Shown: piece after piece, positions 49,674 to 64,000 of the stretch
Layout of the letters: each line of letters starts with the position of its first letter
How positions within the stretch are numbered: position 1 is the first letter of the stretch
Assembly: GCA_024642505.1 (NCBI GenBank)
Contig: JAHEAZ010000004.1
Span: forward strand, 21,841 to 85,840
DNA: 64,000 bases
Reading direction: 5' to 3'
From: Gammaproteobacteria bacterium
GTDB taxonomy: Bacteria; Pseudomonadota; Gammaproteobacteria; Steroidobacterales; Steroidobacteraceae
Translations under genes and position numbers: made by a program
The notes under the pieces: model-generated
Told to the model about the DNA's origin: nothing
Databases searched by the model: none
Seen by the model: only the letters and a program-made list of their open reading frames with translations

Positions 49674-50495
49674 TCAGTTGGGCTCAGCGCCCGGATTCGG
49701 GTCTGCCATCGGGAACGTCTGTGCATCAGCGGGTGGCGCTGTGGGCGGTGCGGCCACCGCGGGCGTCGCCGCAGCGGCTTCTGGCGCAGCCGGAGCCGCG
49801 CCATCAGCAGCCGGTGCCGCGGAGGTGATACGAGCCACCTCCTGGATCAGTGCCGGCGCGGGTTCCGGGGCAAGTGGTGTGCCGGGCGCGATGATGTCGG
49901 AGGCAATCACACGGCTCTTGCCGTAGAAACGCTCGTTGGCGCCATCACGGATGAACAGGACGCTGCCCTCGAGCGACACGCCAGCAAACAACCCCTTGGC
50001 TCGTGAATAGGAGTAGATCTCGGCGTCGAGGGTGACGCTGGTCGCGGCGGAGGCCGACCGCCCCACGGGACCCGCTACCGCGGAGGCGTCGCCGCCAAGG
50101 GTAATCTTGCCGTCGGTGATCCCCTCGATACTCTTTCGGGTCGTGAACACCAGCACCACGTCGGCCGCCTGCACGCCGAACTGCCAGCCGATGCTGCCCG
50201 CGCCTATACCGATGAACAGCGGGTTGCTCCAGTCACCTTCGCTCTGCCTGACCAGCAGTACGCCAGTTCCTCCGCGGCCGCCGACGAAGGCGCCGGCCTT
50301 GACGACCTCGGGCAGGATGGCGATCCCTTGTGCCCGCTGCAGCAGCCAGTCCGGGACCTGCAGGTCCGGCATCGCCTGCATTTCGGTCAGTACCTTGGCC
50401 GAATTCTGGATGATTTCCGCCTCCCGCTCCTGGGCGTAGGCCGGGCCGGCGGCGAGTGCCACGGCAATGATCGTGCTGAACGCAATCTTGCGCAT
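49674..50495 (-). CDS. Secreted SYLF-domain (Ysc84-like) lipid-binding protein
   Basis: Periplasmic or surface protein (273 aa). A signal peptide (IAVALAAGPAYAQ) precedes a SYLF/Ysc84 domain (about residues 30-200): GIAILPEVVKAGAFVGGRGG, SNPLFIGIGAGSIGWQFG, TLGGDASAVAGPVGR and SYSRAKGLFAGVSLEGS. SYLF proteins bind phosphoinositides in eukaryotes; bacterial ones have unknown ligands. The last 60 residues are a low-complexity Ala/Pro tail, possibly a surface or wall-spanning linker. It is divergent from the ApbE gene. Confidence 0.85.
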   Translation of the reverse strand: MRKIAFSTIIAVALAAGPAYAQEREAEIIQNSAKVLTEMQAMPDLQVPDWLLQRAQGIAILPEVVKAGAFVGGRGGTGVLLVRQSEGDWSNPLFIGIGAGSIGWQFGVQAADVVLVFTTRKSIEGITDGKITLGGDASAVAGPVGRSASAATSVTLDAEIYSYSRAKGLFAGVSLEGSVLFIRDGANERFYGKSRVIASDIIAPGTPLAPEPAPALIQEVARITSAAPAADGAAPAAPEAAAATPAVAAPPTAPPADAQTFPMADPNPGAEPN

Positions 50496-50628
50496 CTTTG
50501 GTGTCCTTCCTGGTTTCCGGGCTCCGCGTCAGCTGACTGCGCAGGTCGGTACAAGTTCCATATTAGTGTAGCCCGTAGCCGACACTGCGGTCAGCAATTC
50601 CTTGGCCGGGCCGACTATCATTGGACGC

Positions 50629-51612
50629 ATGCGAGTCTCAGCGTCACGGTTCCGCAGCATCTTTTTCGCCGTCATTTCGCTGACGGCGATGGCTGCCCAT
50701 GCCGACTGGTACCACCGCGAGGCAGCCATCATGGGCACGCGGATTGCGGTGGAGCTGTGGCACGAAGACGCCAGCGAGGCGGAACGGGCCATCGAGGCCG
50801 TGCTCGGGGAGATGCGCCGCGTGGACGCGCTGATGTCCCACTACAAGCCGGAAAGCCAGCTATCGCAGATCAACGCCCGGGCGGCGCTCGCTCCGGTGGC
50901 CGTCGATTCCGAGCTGGCGTCCCTGATAGAGCGTGCGGGGAAGTTGTCGGCGCTGACCGGGGGCGCCTTCGATATCACCTACGCCAGCGTCGGCTACCTC
51001 TACGACTACCGTGCGCATCAGAGGCCGACCGATGAGCAGATCGAGGCGGGCCTGGGCGCCGTCAACTGGCGGCACGTGGTCGTTGACCCCAAGGACTCGA
51101 CCGTGCGTTTCACCCGGTCCGGGGTGCGGATCGACCTCGGTGGAATTGCCAAGGGCTATGCGGTTGATCGGGCTATCGCCATCCTCGAGTCCCACGGGGT
51201 GCGGCACGCGAGCGTCACGGCGGGCGGCGACAGCCGGATTATCGGCGACCGCTTCGGCCGGCCGTGGATCATCGGGATCCGCCATCCAGATGACGCCGAC
51301 CAGGTAATCGCGCGGATCCCGATGATTGATGCCGCAATTTCGACTTCTGGCGACTACGAGCGGTATTTCGACGAGGACGGCGAGCGCTTCCACCACATCA
51401 TCGATCCGCATACTGGCAAGAGCGCCAGTAAACTGCGTTCGGTAACCATCATCGGAGCGGACGCGACGACGACGGACGGCTTGTCCACCAGCGTCTTCGT
51501 CATGGGCCCCGAACGCGGAATCGAGCTCATCGAGCGGCTTGGAGATGTCGACGCGGTGGTCGTGAAGAGCAACGGGAAGGTGCTCTACTCGTCGGGGTTG
51601 GCGCCGCCGTGA
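50629..51612 (+). CDS. apbE: FAD:protein FMN transferase (ApbE), secreted
   Basis: Attaches FMN covalently to Ser/Thr of extracytoplasmic redox proteins. A signal peptide (FFAVISLTAMAAHAD) places it in the periplasm (327 aa). Family blocks: EAAIMGTRIAVELW, SHYKPESQLSQIN, GAFDITYASVGYLYDY, the Mg/FAD motif DLGGIAKGYAVDRA, HHIIDPHTGKSA and TTDGLSTSVFVMG. ATG 50629 is preferred to a TTG at 50602. It is convergent with the DUF3570 operon, whose products lack the usual flavin attachment motif as far as I can see, so its target may be in the truncated gene at the right end or elsewhere in the genome. Confidence 0.93.
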   Translation: MRVSASRFRSIFFAVISLTAMAAHADWYHREAAIMGTRIAVELWHEDASEAERAIEAVLGEMRRVDALMSHYKPESQLSQINARAALAPVAVDSELASLIERAGKLSALTGGAFDITYASVGYLYDYRAHQRPTDEQIEAGLGAVNWRHVVVDPKDSTVRFTRSGVRIDLGGIAKGYAVDRAIAILESHGVRHASVTAGGDSRIIGDRFGRPWIIGIRHPDDADQVIARIPMIDAAISTSGDYERYFDEDGERFHHIIDPHTGKSASKLRSVTIIGADATTTDGLSTSVFVMGPERGIELIERLGDVDAVVVKSNGKVLYSSGLAPP

Positions 51613-51636
51613 GCGGAGGAGGGGCGGGCCTCCGTT
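51612..51636. terminator. Hairpin at the apbE 3' end
   Basis: CGGAGG (51614-51619) pairs with CCTCCG (51629-51634), extended by two outer pairs, directly overlapping the apbE stop. It lies in the 75-base gap to the convergent operon. Confidence 0.4.
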
Positions 51637-51687
51637 GACACGCGGACTGTCTCCTCCTGCCAAAGGGAAGCCTGGCCCCGCTGATGC

Positions 51688-52821
51688 CTAGAACCACCCG
51701 GAAAAGAACAGCTGGATGACGTTCGCGTCAAAGCTGTACAACGGCTCGGTGCCCGGCTCCAGGCTGGTTACGCGCAGGTCGCGGAAGTCGTCGTACTTGA
51801 ACATGATCAGGTCGTACTTCAGGTTGACGGTGCTCTTCCTCAGGAACTTGAGCCACGGCATCGTGAACTCGTAGCTGGCTCCCACGCCCACGGTGTGACT
51901 GCTCATCGTCGCGAGTTCCTTGTCGCGCGCGAGGAAGTTCTGGTAGTTCTGCCGCGGGAACAGGTCATTGTAGAAGTCGGCGCCATCCTGAGTGTGGAAG
52001 CGGTAATGGGCGTCAAAGGTCCACTTCTCGCCCCAGGGCTGCGTGTAGCTGAGCTCCGCGGTATGAGCGCGAATGTCCCAGTCGTCGGTGTAGTAACGGT
52101 ACTCGCCCTGCAGGGCGGCCCGGTATGGCAGGAAGTAGCGGGCACGCATCGCCAGCGCGGTGCCGGTACGCGTTTGCGGATAGCGCTCCGGTTCGTAGGC
52201 ATAGCCGCTTGCCGCCTCGGGATCGAGGTAGCGAACCGACCGGTACGGGTTGTTTAGGAAACCTTCTTCGGTCACCGTCTCCAATGAAAACCCCAGGATC
52301 AGCGCTCGCGTCGCGATCTGCGACAGGTCGATACCGTAGACGCGCCGGTCGACCTGGTCGCTGAAGAGGTCATCGCCACGGCGAAACACCTTGTCCCAGC
52401 CGCGGGCAAAGGACAGCGATACCGTCGTCAGGTCGCCGAACATGTCCTGGCTGATCGAGGCACGTGCGGTATTGGCCTCGTAGTCGCTCTCCTTGCTGTT
52501 GGAGAAGCCCAGGTTGTAGGTGATCTTGTCGCGCAGGTACTCAAAGCCGAGCCCGTATTCCTTGCGTTCTTCCTTGTAGGGACTTGCCGTGGTGACCACG
52601 TCGATTGACGCGCTCGACACCATGTCGATGTAGTAGCTCGCGCTGACCGCATATTTTTCGGCGAACTTCTTGCGCACCAGTAGCGACGGTCCATCGATGG
52701 TGACGCCCCCGCCATCGTAGCGGTGGTACATGATGTCCGCGCGGTCGTCGTCGAGCACTCCGGCCATGGCCGGAGCAACTACAGAGAGGCAAGCAACTAC
52801 GGTGACGAGACGGCAAAACAT
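51688..52821 (-). CDS. DUF3570 outer-membrane beta-barrel protein
   Basis: Predicted outer-membrane barrel (377 aa). Signal peptide VVACLSVVAPAMAG, then a DUF3570-type start (DDDRADIMYHRYDGGGVTIDGPSLLV) and many strands with Tyr/Phe at alternating positions, ending QLFFSGWF, a clear assembly signal. ATG 52821 follows GAGG. DUF3570 genes are often found with DUF4266, ApbE and thioredoxin genes; that is the case here. It is the last gene of a six-gene leftward operon. Confidence 0.85.
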   Translation of the reverse strand: MFCRLVTVVACLSVVAPAMAGVLDDDRADIMYHRYDGGGVTIDGPSLLVRKKFAEKYAVSASYYIDMVSSASIDVVTTASPYKEERKEYGLGFEYLRDKITYNLGFSNSKESDYEANTARASISQDMFGDLTTVSLSFARGWDKVFRRGDDLFSDQVDRRVYGIDLSQIATRALILGFSLETVTEEGFLNNPYRSVRYLDPEAASGYAYEPERYPQTRTGTALAMRARYFLPYRAALQGEYRYYTDDWDIRAHTAELSYTQPWGEKWTFDAHYRFHTQDGADFYNDLFPRQNYQNFLARDKELATMSSHTVGVGASYEFTMPWLKFLRKSTVNLKYDLIMFKYDDFRDLRVTSLEPGTEPLYSFDANVIQLFFSGWF

Positions 52822-52829
52822 GATGGTCC

Positions 52830-53057
52830 TCAGTTGCAGCCGCAGCCGCCGCCCGCGCCGCCCATGCCGCCGCGCGCACCCTCGCGCGACTCGTACACGT
52901 GCCGGACGTAGGAGGAGGAGACCGGATTGCGGTCCCAGTCCATGATCGGATCGGCCAGGTGTTCGCGCTCGTAGGGCTTGACCCAGGGCTCGAGCTGCCC
53001 GCAGCCGGCGGTCGGCAGCATGAGTACCACCAGCAGTCCGCTGCACAGGCGCTTCAT
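52830..53057 (-). CDS. DUF4266 small lipoprotein with Cys-rich C-terminus
   Basis: A 75-aa lipoprotein with lipobox TAGC (Cys19). The middle (VKPYEREHLADPIMDWDRNP) is the DUF4266 core, and the C-terminus is Gly-rich, ending GGGCGCN with two Cys one residue apart, possibly a metal or heme-delivery site or a partner for the thioredoxin encoded just upstream. Its start overlaps the thioredoxin stop by four bases (ATGA), and DUF3570 starts nine bases after its stop. DUF4266 and DUF3570 are usually paired. Function unknown. Confidence 0.88.
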   Translation of the reverse strand: MKRLCSGLLVVLMLPTAGCGQLEPWVKPYEREHLADPIMDWDRNPVSSSYVRHVYESREGARGGMGGAGGGCGCN

Positions 53058-53566
53058 GGCGTCTCCCTCAGCATGGCGCGCACCTGATCCAGGTACTCGT
53101 TCTCGTCGCCGGGCTTGTAGGCGCGATGCATCCAGCGGACCTGGCCCTTGCGGTCCACGATCAGGGTCGTGGGCATGGCTGAAACGCCGTAGACCCCGCT
53201 GACCTTGTTGTCTGCGTCGTAGGCAATGGGAAAGGACGCTGGCGTGCTGGCCAGGAAGCGCTCGGCGTCGGTCCGGTCACTCTCGACGTTTACGGCAAGC
53301 AAGGTGAATCCCATCGGCTTGTATTTGCGGTACATCTGGTCCAGTACCGGAAATTCCTGCCGGCACGGGCCGCACCAGCTGGCCCAGAAGTTGATCATCA
53401 CCACCTGCCCTCGCAGGTCCTCGAGCCGTACCTGGCTGCCACTACGGGTCGGGAGTTCGAAGTCAGGAGCGTCGGCGCTCACTGCTGAACCCGGCCGGGC
53501 CGGACTCGCAAGGAGCGAGGCGCCCAGGGTGACTGCAACCAAGGTGACGATGCGGCTGGCAAACAT
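53054..53566 (-). CDS. TlpA-like periplasmic thioredoxin
   Basis: Periplasmic thiol-disulfide protein (170 aa) with signal peptide (AVTLGASLLASPA) and the active site WASWCGPC (Cys65, Cys68), followed by cis-Pro in AMPTTLIVD. The TlpA/ResA-type start (APDFELPTRSGSQVRLEDLRG) is clear. ResA-like proteins reduce apocytochrome c Cys before heme attachment; in this operon the diheme lipoprotein or the Cys-rich DUF4266 protein is a likely client. ATG 53566 follows GAGGA. It overlaps the DUF4266 gene by four bases. Confidence 0.9.
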   Translation of the reverse strand: MFASRIVTLVAVTLGASLLASPARPGSAVSADAPDFELPTRSGSQVRLEDLRGQVVMINFWASWCGPCRQEFPVLDQMYRKYKPMGFTLLAVNVESDRTDAERFLASTPASFPIAYDADNKVSGVYGVSAMPTTLIVDRKGQVRWMHRAYKPGDENEYLDQVRAMLRETP

Positions 53567-53585
53567 GTCTCGTTCCTCGCGTGAT

Positions 53586-54260
53586 TCAGAAGAACGCAGT
53601 AAGCGACACAGTGGCCTCGAAGTTGTGCGTCTGCTTGCTCTTGCCGACGACGTCCACCTCGAGAATGTGATCCCTGATGTCCAGGTGTGCTGCCAGCCAG
53701 TCCTTGACCAGTACGCGCGCACCGGCGCCCAGCGTTACCGTGAAGCGATCGTCACCGGCAAAGCGGGTGCTGCCGGCGCCGGCGGTCAGGTAGACCGCGC
53801 TGTTATAGGCCCGCGTGCCGCCGAGAAAGACCTCGCCGGGCAACACGTTCCAGCCGAATCCCAGGCTGTAGTAGCGGAACTCGCGTTCACTGTCGGTCAG
53901 TAGCGGTGCGCTTCCCGACAATCGCTCGTAGCTGGAGATGCCTGCGTCCGACATGCCGTAGAGCGCCTCGGCGAAGAAGTCCTCGCTGATGTGATAGGCG
54001 AGCCTCGCCCCGTACACCACGTTGACCTCGAAGTCCTCGACCGACAGCGAGCCGATGTAGGCACCGGCCTCCCAGTTCTCCGTGTCGATGTCAGCCACCC
54101 GGACCTCGCGACGCTCGACCTGTGGCGTGATCACGGACGAAGAGTCGACGCCGCTTCCGGTCGTCGCGGACCCGCTCGCGGGCTCCGCGCCTCTCGTCGT
54201 GGCGCAGCCGGACAGGGCCAGCAGTCCGCTCAAAAGAAAAATGCGAATCCGAGTTTCCAT
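53586..54260 (-). CDS. Outer-membrane beta-barrel lipoprotein
   Basis: Predicted lipoprotein (224 aa) with lipobox LSGC (Cys19) and a Ser/Thr/Gly-rich linker, followed by an eight-strand-like barrel (YGARLAYHISEDFFAEALYG; YYSLGFGWNVLPGEVFLGG), ending EATVSLTAFF. It resembles the outer-membrane barrel family first noted in myxobacteria (OMP_b-brl type). The ATG at 54260 lies 31 bases inside the upstream gene, in a different frame, so translation is coupled. Confidence 0.78.
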   Translation of the reverse strand: METRIRIFLLSGLLALSGCATTRGAEPASGSATTGSGVDSSSVITPQVERREVRVADIDTENWEAGAYIGSLSVEDFEVNVVYGARLAYHISEDFFAEALYGMSDAGISSYERLSGSAPLLTDSEREFRYYSLGFGWNVLPGEVFLGGTRAYNSAVYLTAGAGSTRFAGDDRFTVTLGAGARVLVKDWLAAHLDIRDHILEVDVVGKSKQTHNFEATVSLTAFF

Positions 54261-54958
54261 TCGTTGGCTTCCTCGTTGTCGTCACGGTCGGTGAAAACGA
54301 CGTACTTGTTGTATTCGGCCCGGAAAATGAAGCGACGGGACAGGTAGGCCTTGATACCGGCGCCGACGTAGGCAAGCTGGTCGGTGCGGTCGGGGGTCTG
54401 CACCAGGGTTGCCTTGGGCTGAATGTGGATCATTCCGGTGCCGATCGACACGAATGGCTGTACGCGCCAGTCCGGACGGAAGACGTGGGTTAACCCCAGT
54501 GCGGCGATCGTCCCGTCTGACGAATTGCCAAGCAGATGCGATAACCTCAATTCGGCCGCCAGGTGGGGATTGAAGGCGTAGGAGCCATAGGCCGTAAGGA
54601 CGTTTGCGCCCTCGAGGTCGCCGGCCAGCACGCCGACTTCGCGCTGATGCTCCCCGAACTGCTCACGACTGGGATCGTTGATCGCCAGCGCCGTGCCGGC
54701 CGGGGTCAGGGTGGTGGCCATCTGGTCGCGGTGGGCCCAGCCTTCGCGGCCGCGGTCGTCGCGGATCTTGAACCAGTCGGTGCGCCGCTTCAGCACGCTG
54801 ACTTCCTCTCCGCGCGCCACGACGTGGGTGATCGGATAACCGCGGCCCGGTCCGGTGTGCAGCTCGAGGTAGGGATCCGCCACGCTAACCGTCACCGGCG
54901 CCGCATTAAGTCCGGTTGGCAGGACGCAGAGCAGCAGCGCGAGCATCAGGCATCTCAC
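54230..54958 (-). CDS. SH3b domain plus outer-membrane barrel protein
   Basis: Secreted protein (242 aa). Signal peptide LLLCVLPTGLNAAP, an SH3b domain at about residues 22-82 (VADPYLELHTGPGRGYPI ... GREGWAHRDQM), then a barrel (ELRLSHLLG; YVGAGIKAYLSRRFIFRAEY) ending KLGFAFFF. The SH3b may bind peptidoglycan on the inside, as in other SH3b-barrel proteins, while the barrel sits in the outer membrane. It starts three bases after the HzsA-like stop and overlaps the next gene by 31 bases. Confidence 0.8.
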   Translation of the reverse strand: MRCLMLALLLCVLPTGLNAAPVTVSVADPYLELHTGPGRGYPITHVVARGEEVSVLKRRTDWFKIRDDRGREGWAHRDQMATTLTPAGTALAINDPSREQFGEHQREVGVLAGDLEGANVLTAYGSYAFNPHLAAELRLSHLLGNSSDGTIAALGLTHVFRPDWRVQPFVSIGTGMIHIQPKATLVQTPDRTDQLAYVGAGIKAYLSRRFIFRAEYNKYVVFTDRDDNEEANEWKLGFAFFF

Positions 54959-54961
54959 GGC

Positions 54962-57655
54962 TCAGTCCGCCGGTGCTGCGAAGGGATCGTTGTAGTACTG
55001 CGCACCGATGTCGAGCCATTCGGCGACCAGCCGCAGTTCCGCCGGGCTCAGGTAACCGGCATGGCTGCCGCCGGTTTCGAAGCGGCTGAAGAAGCGACTC
55101 GAGGCTAGCGCACCGGCCGGGCTCATGGCGGCTGGAACGGCCACTGGTACCTGGGTCGGCAAACCGGTCACCGGGTCGGGTGGGCCCGGCACCAGGATGT
55201 CCTGCAGCGCGCCCATCACCAGCTCCTGCTCGTTGTCCCCGAACAGCAGGTCCCTGTAGGAGACGAAGTGATCGGCTTGCTCGGGAGACGGATCTCCGCT
55301 CAGGTCCAGTTGTCCCGCTGGCACACGTGGCAGGTCCGCCGCATCGCGCGGGCTGTGGCAGGCCAGGCAACTATGGTCCTCGAGCACGGTAATTCCGTCA
55401 GTATCCAGTACGAGGCGTTCAAGGTCCCACAATGGCTGGATGTGGTCCGGGTAATGGATCACGATCCGGCACAACGACGACCAGGACTGCTGGCAGTCCG
55501 GGCGCGCCGGCGCAGGCGTCTGCAGGTCGCTGTAAAGGTAACTGATCGCGACATCCGGCGCTCGTCCGGCGGCGACCGGGTCGGTCCAGACGTCCTGGAA
55601 CACGACGTTGACGGAGGGCACGATCGCGGCGCAGTCCGTCTGGCAGCTGATTCGTGCGCGGGTCTCGGCCATGGACTCGCCCTGGTCTGCGAACAGGGCA
55701 GGGTCCGTGTTAGGAAACGGCTGGCCAGTAGTCGGTGCGCCCGGATTGACCGAGGCAAACAGCTCGCTGCGGCCGTGCGACAGCGCGGGAACCGCAGCCT
55801 GGGCTGCCGCCGGGACGTGGCAGCCATCGCAGGTCCGGGTCTCGCCGGCCCGTAGCTGCAGCCAGTTGAGATGCCGCGGCGAGATGCGCCGACCATCACG
55901 ATCGGTCACGCTCACCGCGAAAGGCACGCCGGCCGGCACCTTCACCATCACCGACCCGTCCGGCTCGATCGGCGCATAGGCTAGAATTTCCCGCATGCCC
56001 AGTCCGCCCGCTGCCCCAAATGCCGTGCCGCGAATGTCGCGTACTTCGTCGTCAGGAATGCCGACCGCCTTTTCGATCCGCAGGAAACGTGCCGGCCTCT
56101 GGTCGGCAGTGGTGAGGGCCGGGTCGCGAAGCGTTGCGATGCCACCAGGCGCCGCGTCGACACCATCGAGGTCGTAGACGCTGCGGATGTGGAGGATGCC
56201 GACGTTCTCAGTCGCCAGTTCGGTGTCATAGTCGACGCCGGCAACGGCATCCAGGATTACCGGCGGCAGCGGCGAGCGCGGCGCCAGCGCCGCCACGTCG
56301 GTGAACATCACGCCTTCCACCGGCTCGAATACCGGCCTTTGCGTACTGTCGCGCGGGTCCCAGATAAATATCCCGTAAAGCGGCGCCGCGGGAGTGTTCG
56401 CTGGGTTGGCGAGTCGCTCACTGGTGCAGGGCTGTATCCGCCCCTGCTCGACAACCCGGCACAGCGACCAGCTGACCAGCAGCCGGTCGGTGCCGTCCCA
56501 CAGTGGATAGGCCGCGGCATAGCGACCGCCCGGTGACGGACCCGGTACGGTGCGAACGTCATTCGACGTCAGGCGTGCCTGTGCCGGTCCGGCGAGACCG
56601 GCACTCGCCAACGTCGGCTGTGAATTCTCGACATAGGTGCCGGTGTCGATGGCCACGGGATCGCCGCCAAGCTCCGTGTCGCCGAAGGGACGGACCAGGC
56701 TCACCACCTTTCCGTCCGGTCGTGCACGCGGCGTGGTGAACTGGATGATCGAGTTGCCGGATCCGGTATCGTGGCTGTTGACCCCGTAAAGCAGCTCGAG
56801 GCCGCTGCTGTCCGGCCGGACCGCGTAAAGGTGTATGGCACTGCCTGCGGCGTTGTCCCAGCGCGAGAAGACGATGCGTCCATCCGGCAGGACCGACGGA
56901 TCGAGGTCGTGGCTCTGGTTGAAGGAGATCTGCCGGATGCTGCTGCCGTCCGCGCTCATCACGTGCAGCACGAAGGCCCACTCGTTGCGGTCCTCATCGA
57001 GTGCGGAAAACTGCGGCTTGCCCTCGTCGGTGAGCGTCCCTCTCGACTGGCGCTGGCGGCTCGATGCAAACACGATGCGGCCGTCCGGCAGGTAGTGAGG
57101 TGCTACGTCGTGACCTTCCTCGGCGACGAGGTCGGAGGTGATCACCCGCCGTAGCGAACCTGCGCTGTGGTCGTACTCATATATGTTCCAGGTTGGCTGC
57201 TCGCTTTCCTGCGCACCCTCGATCAGTGGTGCACGCATCGCGAACGCGAGCTTGCTTCCATCGAAGGACACGTCAAGATCGCGCACGTCCCATTCACCGT
57301 TGGTGATGCCGGCCGTGAGGTTCCGGTCCATTGCGGCGGGCGCCGCACGGTCGCGCAACCAGACGTCGGCGCCTCCCTGGACGGTCCGCAGTTCGCGCAG
57401 GTCTTCGTCACCGGTTGGCAGTGCGCGCTGGACGTAGGCGATCGGAAAGTCCAGGACGATGGGGTCGGCGGCCTGTCCACTGCCAATGTTGACGTCTCCC
57501 TGGCCGCCACTGCTGCATGCGCCGAGCGTGGCCACGAAGAAAATGACGCCAATCGCCGAAAACGTGATGCGCGTCGCACGCGAGCCCACGCTGGCGCAGC
57601 GGTTGCCGCGAGGGTCCACCGAATCGCCACCTGCGTCACACTTTCCGTCCTTCAT
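54962..57655 (-). CDS. HzsA-like diheme c-type lipoprotein
   Basis: Large lipoprotein (897 aa) with lipobox LGAC (Cys47), a PD40/WD40-type propeller in the first half (DLDVSFDGSKLAFAMR; LPDGRIVFASSR; LPDGRIVFSRWD), and a C-terminal part with two c-type heme sites: CDGCH (609-613) and CLACH (763-767), plus a third Cys pair CQTDC. Propeller plus two hemes resembles the hydrazine synthase alpha subunit family; members outside anammox bacteria are of unknown function, so hydrazine chemistry should not be assumed. The ATG at 57655 has AGAGGA upstream; a GTG at 57589 gives a shorter signal peptide. First gene of a six-gene leftward operon. Periplasmic face of the outer membrane or cell surface is likely. 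Confidence 0.82.
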   Translation of the reverse strand: MKDGKCDAGGDSVDPRGNRCASVGSRATRITFSAIGVIFFVATLGACSSGGQGDVNIGSGQAADPIVLDFPIAYVQRALPTGDEDLRELRTVQGGADVWLRDRAAPAAMDRNLTAGITNGEWDVRDLDVSFDGSKLAFAMRAPLIEGAQESEQPTWNIYEYDHSAGSLRRVITSDLVAEEGHDVAPHYLPDGRIVFASSRQRQSRGTLTDEGKPQFSALDEDRNEWAFVLHVMSADGSSIRQISFNQSHDLDPSVLPDGRIVFSRWDNAAGSAIHLYAVRPDSSGLELLYGVNSHDTGSGNSIIQFTTPRARPDGKVVSLVRPFGDTELGGDPVAIDTGTYVENSQPTLASAGLAGPAQARLTSNDVRTVPGPSPGGRYAAAYPLWDGTDRLLVSWSLCRVVEQGRIQPCTSERLANPANTPAAPLYGIFIWDPRDSTQRPVFEPVEGVMFTDVAALAPRSPLPPVILDAVAGVDYDTELATENVGILHIRSVYDLDGVDAAPGGIATLRDPALTTADQRPARFLRIEKAVGIPDDEVRDIRGTAFGAAGGLGMREILAYAPIEPDGSVMVKVPAGVPFAVSVTDRDGRRISPRHLNWLQLRAGETRTCDGCHVPAAAQAAVPALSHGRSELFASVNPGAPTTGQPFPNTDPALFADQGESMAETRARISCQTDCAAIVPSVNVVFQDVWTDPVAAGRAPDVAISYLYSDLQTPAPARPDCQQSWSSLCRIVIHYPDHIQPLWDLERLVLDTDGITVLEDHSCLACHSPRDAADLPRVPAGQLDLSGDPSPEQADHFVSYRDLLFGDNEQELVMGALQDILVPGPPDPVTGLPTQVPVAVPAAMSPAGALASSRFFSRFETGGSHAGYLSPAELRLVAEWLDIGAQYYNDPFAAPAD

Positions 57656-57826
57656 TGGTCCTCTGCTCCGCTTCGTGCGCGGTGCACACGCGCGATTCCA
57701 TGCTGAACGAGACTAGCCTTTGCACGCAGACACGGGATGTCGCTGTTTGGAGACATTACCGGCGCTGAATCGCGCCGATATAGTCGGCCCCGAGCTCGCA
57801 TCACCGGGCGTGTGTGGAGCACAGAA

Positions 57827-59008
57827 ATGGAATTCGATCGACGCAGGCAGTTATCAAACGCGACCCGCTGCACATTGACGGCACTGGTAGCTACGACGCT
57901 GCTGGCCGGTATGGCGGAGGCCGGGCCGCGCGAACAAGCGAGGCGCATCCACGACCGCATCGCGGGCGTCCCGCCCGATGACACGGTTCTCGGGTCGATG
58001 GAAACGGAGATTGCCGCCGGCCGGATCACCCAGGCTGCCTACCTGGCGATGGAGAGCCCGTACTTCTACTCGGTGACGCTCAAGAACCTGGCCACGCCGT
58101 GGACCAATCGCGACCGCACTGTGTTTGCGCCACTCAACGACTACACCGCCACGTTTATCGGCATGGTCCGCGACGACGTCCCGATGAACGGCCTGCTGTC
58201 CGAGGACGTGCTCTATGTCGGCCGCAGCAGTCTCGGTCTGCCGGCAGCCTCGCCGTCCGGCAACGATCACTACGAGGAAATGGAGCGGCGGCATGTCGAC
58301 CTGAAGGCGGATCTGGTGCGGAGCACCCAATCGGCGACCTATGGCCTGCCACCACAGGCGGCCGCTGGCGTCATGACCACGCGCGCTGCCGCCCAGGCTT
58401 TCTTCGTCGCCGGCACCAACCGCGCGATGTTCCGGTTCACCGTGCTGAATCACCTCTGCCGCGACCTCGAGGAGATTCAGGACACCGCTCGTCCAACCGA
58501 CCGGATTCGCCAGGACGTCAGCCGCAGCCCGGGTGGTGACAGCCGACTGTTCCTGAACAACTGCGTGGGATGCCACTCGGGGATGGACCCGATGGCCCAG
58601 GCCTTCGCCCACTACGACTACGACGAGGCCCAGGGACGCTTGGTCTATAGCGGCGGAACGGTGCGGCCCAAGTACTACAACAACGCCGAGACCTTTAAGC
58701 CCGGCTACGTAACGCCTGATGACCGCTGGCAGAACTACTGGCGCTACGGCCAGAACGCGCTGCTCGGCTGGGACGCGAGCTTGCCGGGCTCCGGCGCCGG
58801 CGCCAGTTCGCTGGGTGCGGAGCTGGGCAACAGCGAAGCATTCGCCAGCTGCCAGGTGGAGAAGGTCTTCCGGACGGTATGCCTGCGCCCGCCCAACGAC
58901 TCGGCCGACCGTGCCCAGGTGGGCTCCATGGTCGCCTCATTCCGTTCCGGCGGCTACAAGCTGAAGCAGGTCTTTGCCGAGTCGGCAGCCTACTGCCAGG
59001 GCGAATGA
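57827..59008 (+). CDS. Monoheme secreted protein, DUF1592/DUF1588/DUF1585-like
   Basis: Secreted protein (393 aa); signal peptide TLTALVATTLLAGMAEAG. Central GVMTTRAAAQAFF and VLNHLCRDLEEI resemble DUF1588; LFLNNCVGCHSGMDPMAQAF contains one c-type heme site (Cys246-His250) with the MDP motif typical of this group, and the end (CQVEKVFRTVCLRPPNDSADR ... GGYKLKQVFAESAAYC) resembles DUF1585. Such proteins are usually encoded beside a DUF1501 or DUF1552 protein, as here, best known in planctomycetes and myxobacteria. This copy is shorter than typical members. GGAG precedes ATG 57827. Function unknown; redox role inferred from the heme. Confidence 0.75.
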   Translation: MEFDRRRQLSNATRCTLTALVATTLLAGMAEAGPREQARRIHDRIAGVPPDDTVLGSMETEIAAGRITQAAYLAMESPYFYSVTLKNLATPWTNRDRTVFAPLNDYTATFIGMVRDDVPMNGLLSEDVLYVGRSSLGLPAASPSGNDHYEEMERRHVDLKADLVRSTQSATYGLPPQAAAGVMTTRAAAQAFFVAGTNRAMFRFTVLNHLCRDLEEIQDTARPTDRIRQDVSRSPGGDSRLFLNNCVGCHSGMDPMAQAFAHYDYDEAQGRLVYSGGTVRPKYYNNAETFKPGYVTPDDRWQNYWRYGQNALLGWDASLPGSGAGASSLGAELGNSEAFASCQVEKVFRTVCLRPPNDSADRAQVGSMVASFRSGGYKLKQVFAESAAYCQGE

Positions 59009-59018
59009 GGAGACGGAC

Positions 59019-61484
59019 ATGACAGGCAAGCTGATCCGTCTCCTTGGCCGCGCGCGCGCGGCGTTACCAGCCGCGGCGCTGGCCATCTTCGTGGCAGCCT
59101 GCGGGGGCGGTGCCGCCACCGAGCAGAACCCGGTGATCTCTGCGCCGCTGCCTGCGGGTTACCAGGGGCCGCCGCCGGCCAGCCAGGACGTGCAGGCATT
59201 CAAGATCAACGTGTGGGACAACCTCAACGGATCGAACCGTTGCGGCTCCTGCCACGGGGCCGGTGGACAGTCCCCGCAGTTCGTCCGCGGAGACGACATC
59301 AACCTCGCATACCAGGCCGCCAACTCCGTGGTGACGCTGGCCGATCCGGGTGGCTCGCTGATGGTCAGCAAGGTCGGTGGTGGCCACAATTGCTGGCTGG
59401 CCAACGACTCCGCCTGTGCGGACCAGCTGACTGTATGGATCCGCAACTGGGCCGGTGCCACGCTGGGAGGAACGCGGGAAATCCAGCTCATCGCGCCGCC
59501 ACTGCGTGAAGTCGGCGCGACCAAGTCGTTCCCGGCAAACTCCGGCGCCTTTGCCTCGACGGTGCATCCGATACTGGTCGAGTACTGCTCCCGCTGCCAC
59601 TCCTCGGCAGCCACGACGCCACAGTCGCCGTTCTTCGCGGAGAGCGATCCGGACATCGCCTACGCGGCGGCCCGGCCGAGGATCAATCTGGACTTGCCCG
59701 AGGAGTCCCGACTCGTCCTCAGGTTACGCAATGAATTCCACAATTGCTGGAGCGATTGCTCGCAGAACGCAGCGGAGATGGAGCAGGCGATCCGCAGCTT
59801 TGCCGACCAGATTCCGCTCAGCCAGATCGACGCGAGCCTGGTGCTGTCGAAGGCCCTGGCGCTCTACGACGGCACCGTCGCCAGCGGCGGTAGCCGCCAT
59901 GACAGCGCGCTGGTGGCCTTGTACGAGTTCAAGACCGGCACCGGCACGATCGCCTACGACACCAGCGGCGTCGAACCTGCCCTGAACCTGAACATGAGTG
60001 GCGACGTAGCCTGGGTCGGCGGCTGGGGCGTGAACGTGCGCGCCGGCAAGCTGCAGGGGCCGACTTCGTCCAGCCGCAAGCTGCACGACCTGATCACGGC
60101 CAGCGGCGAATATTCGATCGAGGCCTGGGTTGCGCCGGCCAACGTCGTACAGGAGAACGCCTTCATCATCGGCTACTCCGGCGGCACGACCACCCGCAAC
60201 TTCACGCTCGGCCAGACGATGTACGACTACGACTTCTTTCATCGCAGCAGCACTACGGGTGCGAACGGTTCGCCCGAGTTCTCCACGCCCTCGGCGGAGG
60301 AGGTGCTGCAGGCTACCCTGCAGCACGTTGTCGCGACCTATGACCCGGTAGACGGCCGCAAGCTGTACGTGAACGGCGCCCTGGTCAGCGCGGGGGACCC
60401 ACAGGCCGGCGGCACGTTCGCGGACTGGAACGACACCTTTGCACTGGTGCTGGGAAACGAGGTGTCGAGTGACCGGCAGTGGCAGGGCGTGATCCGCCTG
60501 GCAGCCGTTCATAACCGCGCGCTCTCTGCCGGGCAGGTCCAGCAAAATTTCGACGCCGGTGTCGGCGAGCGCTTCTACCTGCTGTTCAGCGTCGCCCACC
60601 TCGTCGACGTGCCGCAGTCCTACGTCATGTTCGAGGTCAGCCAGTTCGACAGCTATTCATACCTGTTCGACAAGCCGGTCTTCATCAGCCTCGACGATAC
60701 GGTGAGTCCGGATGGCCTGCGCATCCGCGGAATGCGGATCGGCATCAATGGCGCCGAGGCGAAGGTCGGCCAGGCCTACGTGCCGCTCGACGTGGTGGTC
60801 AATGCGAGCGGCTACGCCCCGGCCGGCGGCTTTGCGCTCTCCAGTGTCGGGACCATCATCGCCCTCGACAAGGGGCCGGCGCTCGACCAGTTCTTCCTGA
60901 CTTTCGAGCAACTTGGCGACCAGACCAACGTGCGCACCGAGCCCGCACCGCTGGCGCCGCCCCCGCCACCGGACGGCGTGCCGCTGCCCGCGATTGGATT
61001 GCGGACCTTCGATGAAATCGCTGCCTCGATGGCCACGATGACCGGGGTGCCGCGCAGCGATCCGGCGGTTGCCGAGACCTACGAACGCGTGCGCGAACAG
61101 TTGCCGACGGTCGAGAACATCGACGGCTTCCTGTCCGCGCACCAGGTCGGCATCGCCCAGCTGGCCATCGAGTACTGCAATTCGCTGGTGGATGACCCGG
61201 TGCGCCGCAGCGCCTACTTTCCGGGTTTCGACTTCTCCGCGCCGGCGGGACAGGCCTTTGACACGGCAGCGGAACGCGACCTCATCGTCGTTCCGCTCGT
61301 CACCAGGGCCGTCGGCACCGGACTTTCCACCCAGCCAGCCTCCGCCGAGGTTCGAGCTGAACTCGACGGCCTGATCGGCCGGCTCACGGCCTGCGGTGCG
61401 GGCTGCGACTCCAGTCGTACCCCAACCGTGGTCAAGGCCAGCTGTGCCGCGGTGATCGGCGGCGCCAGCACGCTGCTGCAGTAG
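59019..61484 (+). CDS. Diheme lipoprotein with LamG domain
   Basis: Large lipoprotein (821 aa), lipobox VAAC (Cys28). The first 270 residues hold two cytochrome-like repeats, each with a heme site (CGSCH 75-79; CSRCH 190-194) followed by an HNCW motif (123-126 and 241-244). A LamG/concanavalin-like domain occupies about 297-512 (LVALYEFKTGTGTIAYDTSG ... GVIRLAAVHNRALSAGQVQQNF), commonly carbohydrate- or protein-binding. The rest is of unknown fold with a Pro-rich linker (APPPPPDG). GAGGAG precedes ATG 59019, ten bases after the previous stop. It probably acts at the outer membrane as an electron carrier attached to a ligand-binding module. Confidence 0.82.
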   Translation: MTGKLIRLLGRARAALPAAALAIFVAACGGGAATEQNPVISAPLPAGYQGPPPASQDVQAFKINVWDNLNGSNRCGSCHGAGGQSPQFVRGDDINLAYQAANSVVTLADPGGSLMVSKVGGGHNCWLANDSACADQLTVWIRNWAGATLGGTREIQLIAPPLREVGATKSFPANSGAFASTVHPILVEYCSRCHSSAATTPQSPFFAESDPDIAYAAARPRINLDLPEESRLVLRLRNEFHNCWSDCSQNAAEMEQAIRSFADQIPLSQIDASLVLSKALALYDGTVASGGSRHDSALVALYEFKTGTGTIAYDTSGVEPALNLNMSGDVAWVGGWGVNVRAGKLQGPTSSSRKLHDLITASGEYSIEAWVAPANVVQENAFIIGYSGGTTTRNFTLGQTMYDYDFFHRSSTTGANGSPEFSTPSAEEVLQATLQHVVATYDPVDGRKLYVNGALVSAGDPQAGGTFADWNDTFALVLGNEVSSDRQWQGVIRLAAVHNRALSAGQVQQNFDAGVGERFYLLFSVAHLVDVPQSYVMFEVSQFDSYSYLFDKPVFISLDDTVSPDGLRIRGMRIGINGAEAKVGQAYVPLDVVVNASGYAPAGGFALSSVGTIIALDKGPALDQFFLTFEQLGDQTNVRTEPAPLAPPPPPDGVPLPAIGLRTFDEIAASMATMTGVPRSDPAVAETYERVREQLPTVENIDGFLSAHQVGIAQLAIEYCNSLVDDPVRRSAYFPGFDFSAPAGQAFDTAAERDLIVVPLVTRAVGTGLSTQPASAEVRAELDGLIGRLTACGAGCDSSRTPTVVKASCAAVIGGASTLLQ

Positions 61485-61521
61485 CGGGTCCTTCAACCCA
61501 AGTCATCCAAGGACACAGGGA

Positions 61522-63123
61522 ATGTTCAGTAAACGCAGGCGCGGAGCCCTCCATCCGGACGAGCCGCTGAGGCATCCGGACCACCCGATGCCGGTCACGC
61601 GACGGCAGTTCATCTCGCAGGGCCTGATGGGGGGCGCAGCAACGGTCTTCGCCCCGAGCGTGCTTGGCCTGTTCGCCAACCCGAGGGCGGCCGAGGCAGC
61701 GCTGTCCGCCGACCTCGAGACGCTCAAGCAGAGCTGCGGTATCGCCGTGCAGGGAGCCGGAAAGATCCCGTTTATCTGCATCGACCTGGCCGGCGGCGCC
61801 AACATGGTCGGTTCAAATGTGCTGGTGGGCGGCCGCGGCGGGCAGCTCGACTTCCTTAGCGCCGCGGGCTACGCCAAGCTCGGCCTGCCGGGCGACATGG
61901 TCCCGGACGCGCCCAATGCTGGCAGCGCCAGCAACAACTGGATCGACGAACAGCTGGGGCTTCGCTTCCATTCCGATAGCGCCTTCCTCCGGGGTATCAT
62001 CGACCGCGTGACGCCGCTCACCGCAGCGGGAATCAACGGAGCGGTCATTCCGGCGCGCTCGGAGAACGATACCGGCAACAATCCGCACAACCCCATGTAC
62101 GGAATCTTCCGCGCGGGTGCGGACGGCGAGTTGCTGACACTGGTCGGATCGCGCAGTTCGGAATCCGGCGGCAACTCGATGGCACCTGCCGGGCTGATCG
62201 ACCCTGCCGTCCGTCCTACCAAGATCGACCGGACCAGCGATGTCACGGGCCTGGTCGATACCGGCAAGCTGGTGGGCCTGCTCGACCAGGACGATGCGGT
62301 GGCTGTCATGGAGTCGATCCAGCGCCTGTCAGACCGCAAACTGGGACGGGTCGACACCGGCATCACCCGGGATGCCGTCATCAAGGACCTGGTGCGCTGC
62401 AACTACGTCAAGGCGGCCGACCTGACCGACCGCTATGGCGACCCATCGGCCCTGAACCCGGAACTCGATCCCGACATCGTCGGCGGCAGCGGCATCTTCA
62501 GTCGCGCCGAGTTCGACGGTGATGCCGAATTCCGCAAGACGGCGGCCGTCATGAAGCTGGTGGTCAATGGCTTTGCCGGCGCCGGAACGATCACCATGGG
62601 TGGCTACGACTATCACGGGCAGGGCCGGGCGACCGGCGAGCTAAGGGATTTCCGCGCCGGCCGCTGCATGGGAGCCTGCCTCGAGTACGCCGCGCGGCGC
62701 GGCGTGCCGTTGATGCTGTACGTGTTCAGCGACGGCTCTCTGTCGGCCAACGGACAGGTGGACAACTCGGCCGATGGTCGGGGCAAATTCATGTGGACCA
62801 GCGATAATCAGCAGACGGCGGCGTCCTTCTTCCTGGTCTACAATCCACGCGGCCGGCCGCAGCTCTATGCAGGGGATGGCCGCCCGCCCGACCAGCACCA
62901 GCAGATCGGCTGGTTCCGCGCCGACGGTTCGGTAGAGACTTCATCCACGCCGGCCGCCAACAACGTCAACCTGCTGGTGGAAACGGTGGTGCTCAACTAC
63001 CTGGCGCTGCACGGCGAGCAAGGCCAGTTCTCGTCTTTGTTCCCGGTAAACGGCCTTGGCGCCAGTTCGCTGCAGGACAGCCTGATAGCATTCAATCCGG
63101 TCGTTAACGGCCGCATCGTCTGA
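61522..63123 (+). CDS. DUF1501-like Tat-exported protein
   Basis: Protein of 533 aa with a twin-arginine signal (TRRQFISQGLMGGAATVFAP, Arg27-Arg28), so it is exported folded. The mature part contains FICIDLAGGANMVGSN, ARSENDTGNNPHNPMYG, and TMGGYDYHGQG, positions where DUF1501 proteins (alkaline-phosphatase superfamily fold) have metal-binding Asp/His. DUF1501 proteins accompany DUF1592/DUF1585 cytochromes, and the same pairing is seen here. AAGGA precedes ATG 61522; an inner ATG at 61588 would also keep the Tat motif. Reaction unknown. Confidence 0.8.
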   Translation: MFSKRRRGALHPDEPLRHPDHPMPVTRRQFISQGLMGGAATVFAPSVLGLFANPRAAEAALSADLETLKQSCGIAVQGAGKIPFICIDLAGGANMVGSNVLVGGRGGQLDFLSAAGYAKLGLPGDMVPDAPNAGSASNNWIDEQLGLRFHSDSAFLRGIIDRVTPLTAAGINGAVIPARSENDTGNNPHNPMYGIFRAGADGELLTLVGSRSSESGGNSMAPAGLIDPAVRPTKIDRTSDVTGLVDTGKLVGLLDQDDAVAVMESIQRLSDRKLGRVDTGITRDAVIKDLVRCNYVKAADLTDRYGDPSALNPELDPDIVGGSGIFSRAEFDGDAEFRKTAAVMKLVVNGFAGAGTITMGGYDYHGQGRATGELRDFRAGRCMGACLEYAARRGVPLMLYVFSDGSLSANGQVDNSADGRGKFMWTSDNQQTAASFFLVYNPRGRPQLYAGDGRPPDQHQQIGWFRADGSVETSSTPAANNVNLLVETVVLNYLALHGEQGQFSSLFPVNGLGASSLQDSLIAFNPVVNGRIV

Positions 63124-63276
63124 GATAAGCTGGACATCCGCAGCGCGATTCCGGCGCCGTGCGGCGGCGACCGGCGCTGTGACGCGCCGCTCCATCGCGA
63201 CCCATTGCCGGCCCGCGTCGCCGAACCGCGACACGCCTCGCATCCGCGGCGGCTGCAGCTATGGCAGTTTTACGGA

Positions 63277-63792
63277 ATGTCTACCAACTCGTGTCGACTG
63301 GGGTATGCATTGCTTGCCGGGCTGGCCCTCGGTCTCGCCGGATCGTGCCCGGTGACTGCCGCGGCGGAGGCGCCCGGGCTTGCGCCTGACTTCGCCCTCA
63401 AGGCGCTTGACGGGTACAACTACCGACTGTCCGAGTACCGTGGCGAGGTGGTCGCGGTGGTCTTCTGGGCCAGCTGGTGTGGCGGATGCCGACACGAACT
63501 GGAGCGCCTGCAAGGCTTGAGCGGCGTCTACGGCAATGCAGGGATGAAGATCCTGGGTGTGACGGTCGACGAGCAGCCTGATACGGCGCGCGCCGTCGCG
63601 GCTGCCATCGGTGCAGATTTTCCGCAACTGCTCGACTCGGGCAAGTCTGCGAGCAAGGCTTACCGCCTGGAGTCCTTGCCGACGACGCTGCTCATCGACC
63701 GGTCGGGGATGCTGCGCTACGCCTATGGTGAACTCGACGCGCGCGGCGAGAGTGAGATGCTCGGCCAGTTGCGCATGTTGCTGGATGAATAG
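63277..63792 (+). CDS. TlpA-like periplasmic thioredoxin (second)
   Basis: Periplasmic thiol-disulfide protein (171 aa) with signal peptide (LLAGLALGLAGSCPVTAAAE) and active site WASWCGGC (Cys68, Cys71), the second position being Gly where the other TlpA here has Pro. AESLPTTLLID-like LESLPTTLLID supplies the cis-Pro. It probably serves heme or disulfide chemistry of the rightward operon, parallel to the thioredoxin of the leftward one. ATG 63277 is chosen for the signal peptide; a longer frame exists. Gap to the DUF1501 stop is 153 bases, so it may have its own promoter. Confidence 0.88.
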   Translation: MSTNSCRLGYALLAGLALGLAGSCPVTAAAEAPGLAPDFALKALDGYNYRLSEYRGEVVAVVFWASWCGGCRHELERLQGLSGVYGNAGMKILGVTVDEQPDTARAVAAAIGADFPQLLDSGKSASKAYRLESLPTTLLIDRSGMLRYAYGELDARGESEMLGQLRMLLDE

Positions 63793-63802
63793 GGAGCCCT
63801 AA

Positions 63803-64000
63803 ATGTCCATAGACAGTCCGGGAATTGCCCAGGCCTGGTTTGCCCAAGACAGGCGCAGACGCCGGCCCGAAGAGGCACCTGCGACACACCGGCGTCGGTC
63901 GGTGGTGGTCGCCTGCCTGCTTGCCGTCGTGATCTGCGTGGCAGCCCTGGCCGACGACGCAGCGGCGCCGCCGGATGCCACGCAGCCATCCTTCCAGGGA
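63803..64000 (+). CDS. Membrane-anchored or secreted protein, cut by the window end
   Basis: Only the first 66 codons are present. ATG 63803 has GGGAG six bases upstream and follows the thioredoxin stop closely. The N-terminus is basic (RRRRRP, then HRRRSVVVACLLAVVICVAALAD), giving a long positively charged region before one hydrophobic segment, so it is either a signal anchor or a late signal peptide; an Ala/Pro/Asp-rich stretch follows. No domain is visible. It is probably part of the rightward redox operon. Confidence 0.6.
   Translation, partial: MSIDSPGIAQAWFAQDRRRRRPEEAPATHRRRSVVVACLLAVVICVAALADDAAAPPDATQPSFQG

Follow-up and report, generated by a model that had tools for sequence, protein, structure and literature searches.

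Does the cluster of exported redox genes at one end of a gammaproteobacterial stretch of DNA form an electron-transfer route of its own, or does it serve a larger machine encoded beside it? The question is raised by the window analysed here, a stretch of 64,000 nucleotides from a member of the Steroidobacteraceae (assembly GCA_024642505.1, contig JAHEAZ010000004.1, positions 21,841 to 85,840), in which positions 50602-64000 hold a flavin transferase gene (ApbE) on the plus strand, a minus-strand left operon (HzsA-like protein, SH3b barrel, barrel lipoprotein, TlpA thioredoxin, DUF4266 and DUF3570) and a plus-strand right operon (CytP, LamG dihaem lipoprotein, DUF1501-like protein of the twin-arginine (Tat) export type, and TlpA). 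An earlier note on the window had let the cluster end at position 64000. We found that the locus runs past it: the next gene, which we call X211 (a label coined here, like CytP), starts at position 63803 and heads an operon that extends on the same contig to about position 72614, outside the view of that note. Judging by its sequence matches, this operon resembles the Agl-Glt core complex of Luciano et al. 2011 (PMC3169522), which is related to the Myxococcus gliding motor. The neighbourhood of a TolQR-like motor operon changes the reading of the redox genes, and we consider it highly probable that the redox module and the core are one functional system.

The rightward stretch, to which neighbour-gene clustering had pointed, was read over 19 kb (L086). 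X211 is followed, in that order, by TPR630, TPR1057, X126, TolQ, TolR, TolR and AgmX, the two tetratricopeptide repeat (TPR) proteins having 630 and 1057 residues and X126 having 126. The TolQ-like protein matches MotA_ExbB (1e-30) and the TolR-like pair matches ExbD (1e-14 and 9.7e-14); a single operon with one TolQ-like gene and a pair of TolR-like genes is the combination that marks an Agl-Glt core. This trio is present in 19 of 20 core loci (phmmer searches against the proteins of the same genomes; the contig of L140 ends after TolQ), these loci, like all those read below, having been chosen and not randomly drawn. The AgmX-like protein reaches 64 bits with the AgmX/PglI C-terminal domain model NF033768 (cut-off 40) and 32 bits with the GltG equivalog model (cut-off 650), and the core has two TPR proteins, with the GltE model at 36.5 bits against a cut-off of 225.

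As published, the core complex is made up of one TolQ, two TolR, a TonB-like GltG and TPR proteins, with gltC, D, E and G; in gammaproteobacteria it forms a single cluster of unknown function, and gltA and gltB are confined to Myxococcales and Bdellovibrionales (PMC3169522). It has been suggested as a possible basal transport machinery (PMC3858216). The TPR protein GltC of M. xanthus has two paralogous outer-membrane barrels, GltA and GltB, as binding partners (PMC4488436), and the Agl-Glt/Nfs machines of Myxococcus move surface cargo. The operon described here is like this core in gathering a TolQ-like and two TolR-like proteins, a candidate TonB-like protein of the GltG type and TPR proteins in one cluster, and unlike it in being accompanied by ApbE/TlpA, the redox module and a pair of adjacent small barrels, one of them clearly of the TIGR04565 family. 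These left-operon barrels look like a pair of the GltA/GltB kind, judged from the published descriptions of the M. xanthus proteins.

The association of the redox genes with the core appears from the following lines of evidence. First, using X211 as a marker of the core, we surveyed 147 genomes of the organism's order and found a good X211 match in 83 of them (87 with the weak matches). X211 is present in 78/78 genomes with the HzsA-like protein versus 5/69 without it, when the best X211 match per genome is counted and the weak-only genomes G034, G039, G083 and G098 are omitted; with these four, the count for HzsA-like genomes is still 78/78. Second, among 274 sampled genomes of the class, X211 occurs in 38/39 genomes with the HzsA-like protein versus 22/235 without it, and 20 of these 22 matches are weak, no better than E 8e-40. 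Third, in a sample of 180 genomes of the phylum the corresponding numbers are 4/4 and 3/176, the four genomes all falling in the same class and two of them (G000 and G299) being shared with the class sample. Fourth, X211 lies within 15 kb of the HzsA-like gene in 26 of the 36 class genomes that have both (G000 and G030 excluded).

Fifth, the redox and core genes are co-linear. All 12 loci chosen outside the order hold HzsA-like, barrel, X211 and TPR genes together. Ten of them carry on a single strand, in this order, the HzsA-like gene, the barrels, TlpA, DUF4266 (recognised in loci by its C-terminal CxC tail, and not detected in L181), DUF3570, X211 and TPR genes; ApbE stands between DUF3570 and X211 in two of the ten, and the TolQ-TolR-TolR trio follows in seven, the stretches of L172, L177 and L178 ending at X126 as fetched. 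L176 and L180 resemble the window in having the core after the right operon, ApbE lying between the two, and in L173, L179 and L181 ApbE precedes the HzsA-like gene. ApbE, whose counts are lower bounds, heads the Agl-Glt-like operon in many relatives: it adjoins X211 in at least 29 of the 47 order genomes in which the two blocks lie apart, and 15 of the 20 chosen core loci (L137-L151) read ApbE-TlpA-X211-TPR-TPR-X126-TolQ, 14 of them continuing with TolR-TolR-AgmX. The core of L152 and L153 starts with TlpA only. In L154-L156, whose genomes have no HzsA-like match, the barrel pair faces away from the core, in two cases together with DUF3570 and TlpA.

The left and right operons are themselves one conserved unit, as the earlier note had supposed from their adjacency. 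The order survey gave matches to the HzsA-like protein in 78/147 genomes, to LamG in 66/147 and to DUF4266 in 81/147. The HzsA-like and LamG genes are divergent, their matches lying 1.3-2.6 kb apart, in 59 of the 65 order genomes that have both, and DUF4266 lies 1.5-3.7 kb from the HzsA-like gene in 69/75, the other six having them on different contigs. The class sample (HzsA-like in 39 genomes, LamG in 35) shows the two genes divergent and adjacent in 21 of the 29 genomes with both. These adjacency counts omit secondary LamG-domain-only matches and secondary HzsA fragments, and the class count also omits G000 and G030. A scan of genome contigs returned one locus, L106, from a gammaproteobacterial metagenome-assembled genome. 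Separation of the two operons in most genomes, which had been named, along with responses to different conditions, as what would make them separate systems, was not found: the HzsA-like and LamG genes lie on different contigs in 6/65 order genomes (two of these on weak or partial LamG matches, a fragment of 54 residues in G146 and a LamG-domain-only match in G086), and are never apart on one contig.

Several observations weigh against a single system. X211 lies within 15 kb of the HzsA-like gene in only 31/78 order genomes; the co-occurrence stems partly from shared descent, and Fisher's test ignores phylogeny. G194 has the HzsA-like protein without X211, and five order genomes (G020, G026, G128, G145 and G157) have X211 without an HzsA-like match, although G128 looks like an assembly gap, its contig ending where the HzsA-like gene is expected (L168, L169). 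In the class sample, LamG is on the same contig as the HzsA-like gene and not divergent-adjacent to it in G297, G362, G373 and G204, and on another contig in four further genomes. L068-L070, L085, L173, L179 and L181 have the left operon and the core with no right operon nearby, and DUF4266 was not detected in L154-L156, as in L181. Lastly, a diverged X211 copy (32-41% identity) was read at 11 loci (L157-L167). It stands at the head of an Agl-Glt-like core in ten of them, and ten show no redox neighbours, L166 having a TlpA; the contig of L161 breaks off immediately upstream of X211, and in L163 only X211 and a single TPR gene are seen.

Could the redox genes then make up an independent route for extracellular electron transfer or respiration, along the lines of the earlier note, with the Agl-Glt-like core as a neighbour that has a separate job? 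The haem, flavin and thiol proteins do bear export signals, the two blocks lie on separate contigs or more than 15 kb from each other in 47/78 order genomes, and the diverged core copies lack redox neighbours in 10 of 11 loci. We regard this reading as unlikely, given the co-occurrence of 78/78 and 38/39, the position of ApbE next to the core away from the HzsA-like gene, and the presence of the barrel pair beside the core even in genomes without an HzsA-like match. Moreover, no protein of the window has more than two CxxCH motifs, so the genes read do not include a multihaem conduit. From the diverged cores without redox neighbours we conclude that the redox module belongs to one lineage of cores, and that the core does not depend on the redox genes. 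The preferred reading of one system, with its redox module on this lineage of cores, is taken up below with the properties of the individual proteins (Table 1).

Table 1. Genes of the redox module and start of the Agl-Glt-like operon in the window (positions of the 64,000-nucleotide stretch)
Feature	Position	Strand	Matches and remarks
ApbE flavin transferase	50602..51612, likely ATG 50629	+	PF02424 E 2.9e-85
DUF3570 barrel	51688..52821	-	PF12094 8.9e-43; two D-x-x-[S/T]-x-A-S candidate flavinylation sites (SSAS, TTAS)
DUF4266 small lipoprotein	52830..53057	-	PF14086 3e-23; C-terminal GGGCGCN (CxC)
TlpA-type thioredoxin	53054..53566	-	PF00578 3e-29; CxxC invariant in 28/28 (window included)
Barrel lipoprotein	53586..54260	-	TIGR04565 (OMP_myx_plus) 159 bits, cut-off 60
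SH3b domain + OMP barrel	54230..54958	-	PF08239 1.5e-11, PF13505 3.9e-8; TIGR04565 28.8 bits, below cut-off
HzsA-like dihaem lipoprotein	54962..57655	-	PF18582 2.1e-11; TolB-like propeller, HZS_alpha middle domain, C-terminal haem domain
CytP, monohaem protein	57737..59008	+	weakly like PSCyt3/PSD2 (DUF1588/DUF1585)
LamG dihaem lipoprotein	58974..61484, likely ATG 59019	+	PF13385 2.1e-20
DUF1501-like Tat-exported protein	61522..63123	+	alkaline-phosphatase-superfamily-like fold in model; RR invariant
Second TlpA-type thioredoxin	63205..63792, likely ATG 63277	+	PF00578 1.9e-24
X211, first gene of Agl-Glt-like operon	63803..64000 (start within window)	+	

The inventory of the earlier note was largely borne out. 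The two TlpA thioredoxins, ApbE and the three barrels (DUF3570, SH3b and lipoprotein) all have profile matches. At least five CxxCH sites on three proteins had been announced, and there are exactly five, distributed 2+1+2 over the HzsA-like protein, CytP and the LamG protein. Every cysteine and histidine of the five is invariant among the aligned homologues (35 HzsA-like, 30 CytP and 29 LamG proteins, the window protein being included in these and the following counts), so these motifs are not chance occurrences. That the whole set is exported also agrees with the alignments: the lipobox cysteine is invariant in the HzsA-like (35/35) and LamG (29/29) proteins and present in 30/34 barrel lipoproteins, and the DUF1501-like proteins keep their twin arginine in 29/29; the other signal peptides were judged by eye. 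ApbE was rightly recognised, and its placement needs correction: it is convergent with the left operon and hence outside the transcription unit of that operon here.

Part of the gene set belongs to a system that has already been described, namely the ApbE-DUF3570-DUF4266-thioredoxin flavinylation system of Meheust et al. 2021, who counted 316 such clusters without DsbD, found a Chlorobium DUF3570 relative flavinylated at two [S/T]GA[S/T] sites and called the role of the system uncertain (PMC8238504). The earlier statement that no named system with this exact content was known overlooks this published part; the combination as a whole was found in no paper by our searches. All four gene kinds cluster here, with the CxC tail on DUF4266, as in the Meheust system. 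The window differs from that system, as far as the passages on it go, in three respects: its thioredoxin matches PF00578/PF08534 (the paper names PF13899), its DUF3570 has no canonical [S/T]GA[S/T] pair, and its genes are linked to HzsA-like, LamG, CytP, DUF1501-like and Agl-Glt-like genes. The missing canonical glycine is a further point against our reading. The first site reads D-x-x-[S/T]-[S/G]-A-S in 31/31 HzsA-linked DUF3570 proteins, with the aspartate, the alanine and the acceptor serine kept; it is canonical in 6/31, and both sites are canonical in 0/31. In the window-type DUF3570 the candidate acceptor serines are residues 71 and 79 of the 376-residue sequence, counted without the initial methionine. 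The general motif is D-x-x-[S/T]-G-A-[S/T], and one model protein still showed roughly half of its flavinylation when the glycine was changed to alanine (PMC12052999). Stand-alone TlpA-DUF4266-DUF3570 clusters also exist (L077-L081 and L083, with ApbE in 5/6); their DUF3570 differs widely from that of the window and has the canonical [S/T]GA[S/T] (TGAT/TGAS) in 5/6 loci.

As 25 clusters of the DUF3570 type hold a VIT1 iron transporter (PMC8238504), we also considered a thiol/flavin-driven reduction or assimilation of metal (iron), as suggested for some of these clusters. No iron transporter is among the 19 annotated genes, a weak counter-argument in that the neighbours were not searched for iron genes, and we judge an iron system to be quite improbable here.

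The name of the HzsA-like protein raises the further possibility of a hydrazine-synthase-like nitrogen enzyme built around it. Its AlphaFold2 model (predicted local distance difference test (pLDDT) 78, predicted template modelling score (pTM) 0.73) matches the alpha subunit of hydrazine synthase (HZS; 5c2v_A) over its full length (Z 32.3, 596 aligned residues, 3.9 Å; Foldseek E 3e-26), with TolB as the next-best structural match, for the propeller. In HZS, haem alphaI has as a ligand Tyr591, which lies four residues after the zinc-binding histidine of the alphaI CxxCH motif (PMC12607021). At this position, four residues after the histidine of the first CxxCH, tyrosine occurs in 0/35 HzsA-like proteins, and the hydrazine_alpha equivalog model gives 36.5 bits against a cut-off of 800. 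We therefore rejected hydrazine chemistry, the ligand tyrosine of haem alphaI being missing, and the nitrogen-enzyme reading, largely refuted, is hardly credible; this judgement covers the alpha-like protein and not the genes of the beta and gamma subunits. The name thus stands for the fold, with its propeller, middle haem domain and C-terminal haem domain, and not for the active-site haem; the protein also differs from HZS alpha in being a lipoprotein and in its gene context. Likewise, a 2025 survey describes distant HZS homologues without key residues in Planctomycetota and Desulfobacterota (PMC12758564).

Some relatives depart from the window protein. In L067-L069 and L085 the HzsA-like protein has a C-terminal extension bearing a third CxxCH, and L067-L070 and L085 encode a small extra protein near it, which in L068:10810-11328 is a lipoprotein with CxxxCH. 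In G194, the HzsA-like match is partial (residues 34-486, in a frame of 630) beside a nearly whole LamG, and the locus is possibly decaying.

Two further proteins of the right operon deserve mention. First, the DUF1501-like protein is predicted to have a fold of the alkaline phosphatase superfamily type. Its model (pLDDT 74.8, pTM 0.80) has a best structural match of Z 11.7 over 244 aligned residues at 4.8 Å, among chains preselected by Foldseek (own best E 8e-3), and the 50 structural matches listed are alkaline phosphatases, sulfatases, nucleotide pyrophosphatases/phosphodiesterases (NPPs), phosphoglycerate mutases and related enzymes. The DUF1501 name agrees at this level of fold only. No PF07394 match was found in 19 family members at E up to 1 or in the window's own genome at E 0.001, the profile-profile comparison (hhalign) gave a probability of 3.8, and DUF1501 membership by sequence was rejected. 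Second, CytP bears a weak similarity to the PSCyt/PSD proteins of planctomycetes: at E up to 1, PSD2 is matched by 17/19 family members and PSCyt3 by 14/19, the window protein reaching 16.1 bits with PSCyt3 (cut-off 27) and 18.1 bits with PSD2 (cut-off 25.8). For both proteins, sequence searches of the PDB were uninformative. Among the PSCyt genes of freshwater Verrucomicrobia are some that carry carbohydrate-binding modules as well, including pfam13385 (LamG), and that lie near sulfatase genes; a role in carbohydrate metabolism was suggested, and the proteins were predicted to be periplasmic or cytoplasmic (PMC5615132). CytP is unlike these proteins in staying below the Pfam cut-offs, and LamG is carried here by a separate haem protein. 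This parallel and the LamG domain are the only hint at a glycan-like substrate.

Taken as a whole, route and substrate included, we hold it rather probable that these genes encode a flavin/haem electron-transfer module of one lineage of Agl-Glt-like machines. We infer the locations of the parts, the order and direction of the electrons, the substrate and the coupling of motor and redox chain as follows. In this genome one system of 19 genes would comprise an Agl-Glt-like core, made up of a TolQ/TolR/TolR proton motor, an AgmX/GltG-like link of the TonB type, TPR proteins and a pair of small outer-membrane barrels, and a dedicated redox module carried by that core. The TlpA thioredoxins would bring reducing equivalents to the periplasm and pass electrons to two partners, DUF4266 with its CxC tail, a lipoprotein, and DUF3570, a putative outer-membrane barrel that ApbE would flavinylate at two sites. 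DUF4266 and DUF3570 would exchange electrons with the haem lipoproteins (HzsA-like and LamG dihaem) and CytP, the haem lipoproteins being the outer end of the chain. The LamG and phosphatase-fold proteins may have a part in binding or processing glycan-like material at the surface, and the motor would move or assemble this substrate. This particular electron order and this substrate are proposed tentatively, with slightly less than even confidence. More tentative still is the idea that the electron-transfer module is built into a proton-driven machine spanning the envelope, with the motor moving the very surface substrate that the flavin/haem chain oxidises or reduces.

The gammaproteobacterial Agl-Glt core was described in 2011 as conserved and without a known function, and one lineage of it now gains, from its near-strict co-occurrence with the flavin/haem module, an electron-transfer hypothesis and a list of partner genes; conversely, the DUF3570 flavinylation system is placed next to an energised envelope machine. 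The HzsA-linked DUF3570 proteins also supply naturally occurring variants of the ApbE target motif, in which serine, threonine, glutamine or asparagine takes the place of the glycine. If true, the more tentative idea of a motor and a redox chain acting on one substrate would give the gammaproteobacterial Agl-Glt core its first assigned role and would define a new kind of redox-coupled envelope machine. We found no paper on the combined redox module and core, within a search that supplementary tables and most subscription papers, which may list the linkage, lay beyond. DUF4266 together with DUF3570 led to one paper, and a literature search for ApbE with Glt and gliding returned none. Among the 12 papers listed of 36 that hold at least two of these terms, none joined ApbE or flavinylation with AglR, GltC or GltG, and no other paper listed links the parts in its title or the opening of its abstract.

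The layout of the locus is compact. Genes within the operons overlap or are spaced by up to about 40 bp, except for 80-150 bp before the second TlpA, and the divergent intergenic stretch measures 81 bp between the starts of the open reading frames, or more if CytP begins later. A Ysc84/SYLF protein gene (49674-50495, minus strand; PF04366 4.4e-38) adjoins ApbE in the window, and homologues were seen in 13/41 loci of the first batch, in 2/20 core loci, and in 0/13 and 0/12 of the other loci. The window's own genome encodes a second ApbE (G000:C79:5036-5887).

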